From: Nitrospirota bacterium
GTDB lineage: Bacteria > Nitrospirota > Nitrospiria > SBBL01 > JAADHI01
DNA length: 39,888 nt
Direction of reading: 5' to 3'
Assembly: GCA_029261155.1 (NCBI GenBank)
Contig: JAJDBW010000039.1
Span: 1-39,888, forward strand
In this document: positions 1,720 through 8,220 of the stretch, piece after piece
Layout: each line of letters starts with the position of its first letter
Numbering within the stretch: the first letter of the stretch is position 1
Program-made: the position numbers and the translations under genes
The notes under the pieces: generated by a model
The model's database searches: none
The model's input: the letters and a program-made list of their open reading frames with translations, nothing else
What the model was told of the DNA's origin: nothing

Positions 1720-1817
1720 GAAGGCCCCCAAATAGATGAGACGACTTCTTGATTAACCAAGAATGAGTCTACTGAGTGGGGGCCTTCTTGTCAATACAAA
1801 AACCTATGACAAGGAGG
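1720..1817 (+). promoter_or_regulatory. Candidate two-state RNA leader that can sequester the ribosome binding site of the 54-aa gene, copy 1
   Basis: GAAGGCCCCC (1720-1729) is complementary to GGGGGCCTTC (1778-1787). The overlapping strand CCTTCTTGTCA (1783-1793) is complementary to TGACAAGGAGG (1807-1817), which contains the Shine-Dalgarno sequence of the gene starting at 1826. The two helices share CCTTC, so full pairing of both at once is impossible. A small extra hairpin, TTCTTG with CAAGAA, sits in the large loop at 1746-1763. The same arrangement recurs in copy 2 with a changed but still paired left arm. I infer translational control; the trigger is unknown. Confidence 0.55.
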
Positions 1818-4660: not shown

Positions 4661-4987
4661 ATGATTCAGAAAACATTTGAGATCGCCATTTCGTTAGTCC
4701 TGATCGTCACTACTTTGGCTTTTGCTTTGGCCACCGGCAGCTTCATGGTTGTGAGTATAGGTGTCCTCACCCACAAAACCTTCGGATCGATGAACAATCT
4801 TCTGGTGTCTCTGTTCATGATTTTTGTCACAGGCCTGCTCTTCGTCGGGAACCTAAAGGCCTTTAGGTCTTGGAATGGGTTTTGGCAGGTGAACGATGCG
4901 GACGAAGATGAACTGGAAGCAGGAACCGGGTCTAGAAGTACAGCAAGAGTGCTTCAAACAAAAAAAGGATCAACCAGCGCTAACTGA
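4661..4987 (+). CDS. Small two-TM membrane protein, 108 aa, cassette gene b copy 2
   Basis: AAGGAGGA at 4649-4656 sets the start at ATG 4661, although the frame is open to 4607. It begins MIQKTFEIAISLVLIVTTLA and has a second hydrophobic segment at about residues 46-66. An acidic stretch (DADEDELEAG) is longer than in copy 1. The tail LQTKKGSTSAN matches copy 1 except for one residue. Role unknown; a membrane location is predicted. Confidence 0.7.
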   Translation: MIQKTFEIAISLVLIVTTLAFALATGSFMVVSIGVLTHKTFGSMNNLLVSLFMIFVTGLLFVGNLKAFRSWNGFWQVNDADEDELEAGTGSRSTARVLQTKKGSTSAN

Positions 4988-5002
4988 TTGATCCCTTTTA
5001 TT
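4961..5002 (+). terminator. Terminator-like hairpin overlapping the end of gene b, copy 2
   Basis: AAAAGGATCAA in the last codons pairs with TTGATCCCTTTT after the stop, and TTTTATT follows. The core GGATCAA/TTGATCC is perfect here, while copy 1 has one mismatch. Confidence 0.55.
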
Positions 5003-5003
5003 C

Positions 5004-5097
5004 GAAGGCCTCTACTCAGAGAGACATCCACAACACAGGGATTAGTCTACTGAGTGGGGGCCTTCTTGTCAATACCAAACAACCCATGACAAGGAGG
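5004..5097 (+). promoter_or_regulatory. Candidate two-state RNA leader before the 54-aa gene, copy 2
   Basis: GAAGGCCTCTACTCAG (5004-5019) pairs along all 16 positions (two G-U) with CTGAGTGGGGGCCTTC (5050-5065). The overlapping strand CCTTCTTGTCA (5061-5071) pairs with TGACAAGGAGG (5087-5097), covering the Shine-Dalgarno of the gene at 5106. The left arm differs from copy 1 by changes that convert G-C to G-U pairs and extend the helix, while the shared right arm and ribosome-binding-site arm are identical. Conservation of pairing despite sequence change supports a real RNA structure. Confidence 0.6.
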
Positions 5098-5105
5098 AAA
5101 TAAAG

Positions 5106-5270
5106 ATGAAAACAAGAAACCAAGGCGGACGTTTTTTACACCATGACCAAGGCAATGGACCCGTGGGACGCGACATGAGCCCCCTTCGCTATCAAAAAGG
5201 ACAGCGGGAGGAAGAACGGATCTTTAACTGCACCCTCGCCCTTGACGGTGCACGCGTCTGGTCCTTCTGA
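5106..5270 (+). CDS. Small conserved protein, 54 aa, cassette gene c copy 2
   Basis: ATG 5106 follows AAGGAGG at 5091-5097. It has the same length as the copy-1 protein, with identical N-terminal MKTRNQGGRFLHHDQG and C-terminal LALDGARVWSF stretches. Differences cluster in the middle (GNGPVGRD against GSAPKGRN) and include a Tyr-to-Cys change. The mostly synonymous base differences support selection on the protein. No known family. Confidence 0.7.
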   Translation: MKTRNQGGRFLHHDQGNGPVGRDMSPLRYQKGQREEERIFNCTLALDGARVWSF

Positions 5271-5329: not shown

Positions 5330-5740
5330 ATGAAAACGATTAAATCGAATCGATCGACTCAAGGAACCATTCACAATCTGATCAACAGCTTTACCCGAGC
5401 AAAGAAAAGCCCTGCCCAGATACGGCGCAGCCAGGCCCCTTTCTTCGTTCGGAAATACGGTCTGCGTTATCCGGAAGCCCATCGGATCTCGTATTTCATC
5501 TACCTGGTGAACGGGGAGACCAATCAAGCTTTTCTTGAGGCCATGGAGACCTGGGTTCGAGAGCTTGCATTGTCTAAGGGCTCGGTAGAAGCGATCCTCT
5601 AAGCGATCTCGATCCTTTCGGTGACCCGGATCGATTTCGATCGGATCGATACCTGCGCATCTGTCAGACGCGAGGTGATTCGGTATGTGCAGAGGCGTTT
5701 TGCGATGCCGACAGGGGTAGAACTCAAGGCCGCCGCTTAA
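5330..5740 (+). pseudogene. Cassette gene d copy 2, interrupted by an in-frame stop
   Basis: The frame starts at ATG 5330 after AGGAGA and matches copy 1 from residue 1, apart from a three-residue deletion. It hits TAA at 5600-5602 after 90 codons. At the matching place copy 1 reads CTTGATGCG and this copy CTCTAAGCG. Downstream the frame stays open and nearly identical to copy 1 up to the ancestral stop at 5738-5740. The product is therefore a 90-aa N-terminal piece unless the stop is read through. A sequencing or assembly error is possible but would have to explain three adjacent changes. Confidence 0.75.
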
Positions 5741-5997: not shown

Positions 5998-8220
5998 TTG
6001 AATAAAACAACAATACCAACTTTAAAACTGACGGAAAATGCCCTTCGGGTCTTGGAGAAACGTTACTTGATCAAAGACGACGAAGGCGATGTGGCTGAAG
6101 TCCCGGAAGATCTCTTTCGCCGGGTGGCGGAGAATATCGCCAAGGCCGAAGGTTTGTACGATTCCAATGCCAACCTAGCCGAAATGGAAGAGAGCTTTTA
6201 CCAAATCATGAGCGCGCTGCGCTTTTTGCCCAATTCACCCACCTTGATGAACGCAGGCCGTGATCTTCAGCAACTCTCGGCCTGTTTTGTCCTTCCCGTG
6301 CCCGATTCTATGGAGGGCATTTTCGAAACCCTTAAACAAGCCGCGATCATCCATAAAACGGGTGGCGGTACCGGTTTTTCCTTTTCCAGGATTCGGCCGA
6401 AGCACGACCGGGTGAAGACGACAGGGGGTGTCGCTTCAGGGCCCATCTCTTTTATGAAGGTCTTTAACCATGCGACGGAAGCCGTTAAGCAGGGCGGTAC
6501 CCGCCGGGGCGCCAATATGGGGATTCTCCGAGTCGATCATCCCGATATCCTCGACTTCATCTCGTGCAAGGCGGATACAAGCGAGATCACTAACTTCAAT
6601 ATTTCCGTGGCCATGACAGAGGCCTTTATGGAAGCCCATCAAAGCGGAGAAGATTACGATCTGATTTCTCCCCGGACCGGCCAGGTGGTCGGTCAACTCT
6701 CGGCCACACAAGTCATGGATAAGATCGCAGCACAGGCCTGGCAAACAGGAGAGCCGGGGCTGTTCTTTATCGACGAGGCCAATCGGACCAATCCGACACC
6801 GCATGTGTCCGAGATCGAAGCGACCAATCCCTGCGGCGAGCAGCCCCTGCTTCCCTATGAAAGCTGTAACCTCGGGAGCATTGTATTGGACCGCCATCTC
6901 AAAGAAGAGGACGGCAAATACCAGATCGATTGGACCTTACTTGAAGAAACCATCCGCATCGCTGTCCGATTTCTCGATAACGTCATCGACATGAACCGCT
7001 ATCCAATCTCAGAAATCGAGAAGATCACCAAGGCCAACCGCAAAATCGGGCTCGGCGTGATGGGTTTCGCCCGAATGCTCTTCAAATTGGAGCTTCCCTA
7101 CAATTCCGATGAAGGGATAAAAACGGCAAAAGAACTCATGGCCTTTATTAAAAGGACGGGCGATGAGGCTTCTGCCAGGCTTGCGGAGGAAAGGGGCGTC
7201 TATCCCAACTGGCCGGGATCTTTGCACGAGGCCAAGAACCAAAAGCTTCGAAATTCATACGTGACCACTATCGCACCGACCGGGACGATCTCAATGATCG
7301 CGGATACCTCCGGGGGCTGTGAACCTGAATTCTCCCTGGTTTGGTACAAAAACGTGATGGACGGCGAACACCTGCCCTATGTGCTCGACTATTTTATCGA
7401 GATCGCAAAGCGGGAGGGATTTTACAGCGAAGATCTCTTGGATCGTGTGATTGAGAACAAGGGCTCCGTACAAGGCCTCACTCAGGTCCCGGAACATTGG
7501 CAGAAGGTCTTTGTCACCTCTCACGACATACAAGTGGAATGGCATGTGATCATGCAAGCGGCCTTTCAGGAATACTCCGATTCAGCCGTATCGAAAACAA
7601 TCAATCTACCTCACTCCGCAACCGTGAAAGACGTTAAGGAAGCCTATCTCATGGCTTATACCCTGGGTTGCAAAGGGATTACGGTCTACCGGGACGGGTC
7701 CCGAGACCATCAGGTCTTAAACGTGGGGACGGACCTCAAAGGCCAATCCAAGAGGCCCGGGCCGGAGTCCTCCTTGGAGCTGACCCCCGAATTGCGGGTC
7801 AAGGTCAAGACCCGGCATGGCAGCTCTTATGTTCATGTCGCCTTCGGGATCGGGGAGAAGGGCATGGCTGAGTTCCTGAAGATCCTGAAACGGGAAGGCC
7901 GGTTCTACCAACTGTTTTTGTCTCCCTCTCCGCACATAAAAAACAGGGAGAGCCTGGATTTAATCTGCCGTTTGATCAGCGATGATCTCGTTGAAGGAAA
8001 ACCGATCGAAAAAAACATGGAGCAGATGCTCAAATCCAATGCACAATTCGGAGACATGAGCACCGATGTTTACGCCTTGATTAAAAGCTTGGCTGCCGTC
8101 ATGTCGCTACTCAAAAACAATACGACAATGGATATACCCTGTCCAGAATGCGGGTTTACTCCGGTCCGAATGCAAGAGGGTTGTCTTAGCTGCACTCGTT
8201 GTTCTTGGAGCCGGTGCTAA
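5998..8220 (+). CDS. nrdJ: Adenosylcobalamin-dependent (class II) ribonucleotide reductase
   Basis: It reduces ribonucleotides to deoxyribonucleotides with a cobalamin-generated thiyl radical, in the cytoplasm. The 740-aa protein starts at TTG 5998 behind TAGGAG (5984-5989). Landmarks: [12 protein letters not shown] at about 77-87, Cys96 in SACF and Cys290 as the probable redox pair, and NPCGE at 277-281 holding the thiyl Cys279 and Glu281. [19 protein letters not shown] lies near 430 and YRDGSR near 570. The C-terminal ~150 residues resemble the tail domain of NrdJ-type enzymes and end in CPECG...CTRCSWSRC, cysteine pairs fit for re-reduction. No cobalamin riboswitch is seen upstream. A 14-bp palindrome (5936-5949) lies in the leader. 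Element-borne RNRs commonly raise dNTP supply for replication. Confidence 0.93.

Follow-up and report, generated by a model that had tools for sequence, protein, structure and literature searches.

A putative antisense RNA opposite the leader of a 54-aa protein gene and its probable role in translational attenuation in Nitrospirota

The analyzed DNA, a stretch of 39,888 nucleotides from a Nitrospirota bacterium (the window), contains two copies of a plus-strand gene for a 54-aa protein (copy 1, 1826–1990; copy 2, 5106–5270), each preceded by a leader. DNA and protein searches located this gene at 16 loci in 8 genomes, all within two families, Manganitrophaceae and a sister family, of a single order of Nitrospirota, Ca. 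Troglogloeales, and the loci are thus not independent. The carriers include Ca. Manganitrophaceae GW715_bin.13, isolates OFTM249 and OFTM244, and Ca. Manganitrophus sp. GAC strains. The RNA element described below lies beside every 54-aa gene (16/16), and 0 of 247 genomes have one without the other; a covariance-model search found the element only beside the 54-aa gene and not in the 239 other genomes of the class. The element of copy 2 lies at 4960–5108 of the window, and a third copy is present in the same genome (G000:C7). One locus (G015b) is cut off by a contig end.

The cassette has the order Zn-ribbon, ~49 aa, ~104 aa membrane protein, RNA element, 54 aa, 138 aa and nrdJ, an arrangement seen again at several loci in each of the two families, the remaining copies retaining only part of it. 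The linked nrdJ (5998–8220 in the window) encodes a class II ribonucleotide reductase (RNR) of ~740 aa and is additional to a longer (~790-aa) housekeeping form. The extra nrdJ copies track the cassette: family members that lack it have a single class II RNR and carriers have at least two. The 54-aa protein has a charged sequence and returned no match in family searches, and AlphaFold confidence is low for both it (pLDDT 56) and the 138-aa protein (pLDDT 53). The 138-aa gene is intact in copy 1 (2046–2462) and has an in-frame TAA in copy 2 (5330–5737, adjoining nrdJ). Upstream of the cassette, positions 180–900 form a long stretch with no convincing gene.

The cassette unit also occurs on circular plasmids of 199–329 kb, and several copies of the element are on chromosome-sized contigs (e.g. 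G013:C1, 4.29 Mb). Between 9070 and 28327 the window carries plasmid- or ICE-like genes (PIN, RDF-like, CHC2/Toprim primase, UvrD helicase, AAA, DUF3150, methylase, ParB); because ParB, primase, helicase and DUF3150 genes are among them, the window contig may be plasmid-borne. A phage origin was considered and rejected, as the 138-aa protein was unmatched in phages and the 54-aa protein unmatched in viral contigs. On plasmid CP114562.1, nrdJ is split into several frames with a stop (G017:C2, 120997–123186). On plasmid CP114554.1, ~2.5 kb directly upstream of the cassette holds no annotated genes (L090, 2543–5036), and no clear iterons or repeats marking an origin were found in that stretch.

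The original prediction for copy 1 described two helices, GAAGGCCCCC (1720–1729) pairing with GGGGGCCTTC (1778–1787) and the overlapping CCTTCTTGTCA (1783–1793) pairing with TGACAAGGAGG (1807–1817), and the letters and coordinates of all four segments are correct. The first helix, P2, is longer than described and joins a 5′ arm at 1720–1742 to a 3′ arm at 1767–1787 that ends in CCTTC (1783–1787). The second helix, CCTTCTTGTCA:TGACAAGGAGG, is present in the window and conserved in homologous leaders. One of its strands consists of CCTTC and a toehold, TTGTCA (1788–1793), which together make up the anti-ribosome-site strand (CCTTCnTGTC across loci), and the other of the toehold complement and the Shine-Dalgarno. 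In copy 2, the P2 arms (5004–5025 and 5045–5065) pair over 16 continuous bp, and TGACAAGGAGG recurs at 5087–5097.

The folding energy of the copy 1 leader beats 200 of 200 shuffles (z = −5.5; −6.5 with P1, the hairpin preceding P2), and that of copy 2 is similarly far from its shuffles (z = −6.0). In the minimum-energy folds P2 is accompanied by all of the 6-bp TTGTCA:TGACAA helix in copy 2 and by part of it in copy 1. Therefore only CCTTC is contested, the competitors being GAAGG of P2 and GGAGG of the Shine-Dalgarno (5 bp). The proposal that the two helices are mutually exclusive thus holds for CCTTC:GGAGG and fails for TTGTCA:TGACAA, which coexists with P2; as modeled, the arrangement is a toehold with branch migration rather than two wholly exclusive helices.

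To compare the leaders we used a covariance-model alignment, as a MAFFT alignment put the P2 5′ arm in the wrong place. Across 15 leaders, 96% of the cells of the P1 and P2 structure are paired and 7 pairs have changed on both sides, and the covariation score lies above all 500 shuffles (0/500 reach it). P2 contains 23 G·U wobbles when read on the plus strand versus 2 on the minus strand. Because of this 23:2 ratio and the covariation beyond all shuffles, P2 is, on comparative evidence, selected in the plus-strand mRNA.

The second helix is retained, with compensation, in 15 of the 16 leaders. In the plasmid copies CCTG faces CAGG; G011a has a GACGA wobble, G015 has GAAGG with an exact CCTTC, and G003 and G001 have matched bulges. 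Compensation in the anti-ribosome-site helix also includes C-G in place of T-A and a T·G wobble; at several loci the final A of TTGTCA has no partner, and the second helix of G013 contains a single C:A mismatch. The anti-site strand binds its own Shine-Dalgarno region with a mean of −14.6 kcal/mol, versus −8.5 for 35 neighboring ribosome sites (P = 6e-8, with loci that are not independent). In G003c part of the anti-site strand is lost and the 54-aa protein has a divergent end, and this locus may therefore be decaying. Loss of complementarity in both helices of homologous leaders, which would have spoken against a switch, was not seen, and both are kept across the 8 genomes. The terminal loop is hypervariable, and the leader alignments contain no aptamer-like conserved unpaired core. 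In G013, the gene upstream of the leader (L064, 3423) has a ribosome site, CGACAAGGAGG, that nearly matches the site of the 54-aa gene in complementarity to the anti-site strand (−14.9 kcal/mol), making it a possible second target.

On the minus strand, all 16 loci contain TTGACA-N17-TAGACT (TAAACT in G015) with a spacing of exactly 17 bp, a motif with no other occurrence in the DNA examined. Its −35 and −10 boxes lie at 1789–1794 and 1766–1771 in copy 1 and at 5067–5072 and 5044–5049 in copy 2. The site was also picked up independently by a promoter scan, which scored 10 of 12 consensus matches over both boxes of copy 1 (4/6 in the −10 box). It is the only promoter-like site common to every locus, two loci having one extra weaker site, and the scan found no plus-strand promoter near the leader that is common to the loci. 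The invariant bases of the P2 3′ arm are part of this σ70-type promoter, and the invariant unpaired leader bases (the first and last A of AGTCTA, the last A of TGTCAA) likewise coincide with promoter positions.

The hairpin that had been described as terminator-like is a terminator, and the strand is minus. In a terminator scan, P1 (1675–1712) is an intrinsic terminator on the minus strand, with a stem followed by a U-tract. Its non-Watson-Crick positions read as G·U in 21 cases for minus and 0 for plus, an A·C on plus being a G·U on minus, and P1 is kept despite overlapping upstream genes in two different reading frames among lineages. We rejected P1 as a plus-strand terminator, as a plus-strand U-rich tail is found in the window genome only and the mismatches favor minus.

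With the promoter predicted in 16/16 loci and the terminator in 15/15 (one leader is truncated), folding of all loci predicts an antisense RNA of 72–87 nt with a 5′ tail, a small hairpin and the terminator hairpin. The predicted transcript spans 1673–1759 (~87 nt) in copy 1, its 5′ end being placed 7 nt from the −10 box, and 4960–5037 (~78 nt) in copy 2, both on the minus strand. In an anchored hairpin search, the wobbles of its first hairpin also favor minus (31:9). The RNA would include just one arm of P2, and its complementarity to the P1 region and to the P2 5′ arm would be complete. Its least conserved portion is the 5′ part, which differs between copies in one genome. Based on conservation, the minus strand very probably carries an antisense RNA gene.

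We propose, with a probability of about 0.7, that the leader is an antisense-RNA-controlled translational attenuator of the 54-aa gene that would switch as follows. Without antisense RNA, the P2 5′ arm would act as a pre-emptor that holds CCTTC and leaves the Shine-Dalgarno free (ON). An antisense RNA starting at the minus-strand promoter inside P2 and ending at P1 would pair with the P2 5′ arm and free the strand CCTTCTTGTC, which, led by the toehold TTGTCA:TGACAA, would close on GACAAGGAGG and seal the ribosome site (OFF). What the analysis shows is the sequence with its conservation and covariation, the asymmetry between strands, the match of promoter and terminator to consensus, and the predicted energetics; production of the antisense RNA, its intracellular pairing and the direction in which it acts are inferred.

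Constrained folding of both states is consistent with this model: P2 and the Shine-Dalgarno helix alternate around CCTTC. Blocking the antisense footprint lowers the mean openness of RGGAG from 0.49 to 0.15 and raises pairing of the Shine-Dalgarno to the anti-site strand from 0.22 to 0.80. Shuffling the P2 5′ arm alone likewise reduces ribosome site openness to 0.15, and when the toehold complement is shuffled, the bound state opens only modestly, from 0.15 to 0.24. For G003a, G003b, G003c and G001 little or no shift is predicted, and the base of P2 is eroded in these G003 and G001 loci. The translational on/off switch that had been suggested is well supported by conservation of both helices; the antisense strand had been missed, and the trigger is probably the antisense RNA.

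The alternative that survives best accepts the same RNA mechanism and differs in its purpose. Type I toxin-antitoxin loci have an antisense RNA over the leader of a gene for a small toxic, usually hydrophobic, peptide. Here, too, a small protein is found with an antisense RNA over its leader, and genomes hold several copies each, plasmid-borne as well as chromosomal, with a patchy spread, as would be expected if the 54-aa protein were harmful and the antisense RNA its antitoxin. However, the protein is charged rather than a hydrophobic membrane peptide, has no toxin family match, and shares its conserved cassette with a predicted membrane protein of small size, the 138-aa protein and nrdJ. We consider a toxin-antitoxin function unlikely, although it is the least unlikely of the alternatives.

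The antisense unit could also act mainly by transcriptional interference or by exposing the duplex to RNase III, in which case the ribosome-site helix would play a secondary part. The predicted overlap of convergent transcription is about 85 bp with full complementarity, but the compensatory retention of TGTC:GACA would be left unexplained, and we regard this possibility as improbable.

Less probable still is an autonomous cis-acting switch, such as a riboswitch, a thermosensor or a protein-bound leader, with a coincidental minus-strand promoter and terminator. Such a switch would fit P2 and the Shine-Dalgarno helix (P3) as plus-strand structures under selection that alternate around CCTTC, but not the hypervariable terminal loop that lacks an aptamer-like core, the coincidence of invariant unpaired bases with promoter positions of the opposite strand, or the minus-strand wobbles of P1. 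An Rfam scan covering riboswitch, leader and antisense RNA families gave nothing above gathering threshold, and a riboswitch or other known RNA was rejected on this basis. The antisense RNA is thus most likely what operates the switch, rather than an autonomous riboswitch-like element. Equally doubtful is a trans-acting small RNA with targets elsewhere and leader overlap as a by-product, since despite its complete promoter-terminator unit, a CCTTC that could meet other ribosome sites and the nearly as complementary ribosome site upstream in G013, its 5′ part is the least conserved, unlike a trans seed, it is restricted to the neighborhood of the 54-aa gene, and the plus-strand helices covary independently.

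If the attenuator reading is correct, comparative separation of the two strands would have identified translational attenuation by antisense RNA in a setting other than the classical plasmid models. Its tight pairing with the 54-aa protein and the extra ribonucleotide reductase offers a concrete way into the role of the cassette. Because the antisense 5′ part varies between copies of one genome, these copies offer a natural set of possibly insulated regulators. A far more speculative scenario, which we think unlikely, is that the attenuator, whether it departed from plasmid copy control or remained on megaplasmids, now governs a small-protein cassette linked to an accessory class II ribonucleotide reductase. 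Manganitrophaceae-type Nitrospirota would then have an element-borne, copy-number-like control of nucleotide supply.

The literature searched yielded no paper dealing with Manganitrophus small RNAs. Among Rfam families, the plasmid antisense RNA ctRNA_pGA1 (RF00236) gave a weak minus-strand match at 1669–1723 (E = 0.11, 18.9 bits versus a threshold of 45), which is likely to the terminator hairpin only; the element is not a member of that family. The original prediction knew of no described RNA element of such a kind, but plasmids pSK41 and pT181 use the same kind of mechanism. RNAI of pSK41, a staphylococcal RepA_N plasmid, is a ~83-nt antisense RNA, counter-transcribed to the rep leader, that has a 5′ tail and two stem-loops; according to the proposed mechanism it makes the leader form a stem-loop in which the rep ribosome site is hidden, without transcription termination (PMC5703833). 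The element described here resembles it in having a predicted short two-stem-loop antisense RNA with a 5′ tail opposite the leader and a helix that would hide the ribosome site. No sequence relation to the pSK41 or pT181 system was found, the phylum is different, and the antisense target is closer to the initiation site than the ~100 nt of pSK41.

In pT181, the 87-nt antisense RNAI acts with a pre-emptor arm, and the released strand of the repC attenuator folds into a hairpin containing the ribosome site (PMC5703833, PMC5435934). The antisense RNA size class, the pre-emptor arm and a released strand covering the ribosome site are shared with our element as predicted; the released hairpin of pT181, however, is mainly a transcription terminator, whereas the second helix here is followed by a U-tract in none of the loci, which argues against a pT181-type transcriptional attenuator. 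The element therefore has in common with this kind of control a predicted promoter and terminator that would define a short RNA on the strand opposite the leader and, in silico, a 5′ arm pre-empting an inhibitory hairpin, but not control of a plasmid replication initiator: the pSK41 target is such an initiator, whereas the target here is the 54-aa protein, with copies that are also chromosomal. As the 54-aa protein matches no family and copies reside on chromosome-sized contigs, we conclude by analogy that the element works like pSK41/pT181 rep control but, on the tests made, is not itself one: its predicted anatomy is that of their antisense control, and its target is different.
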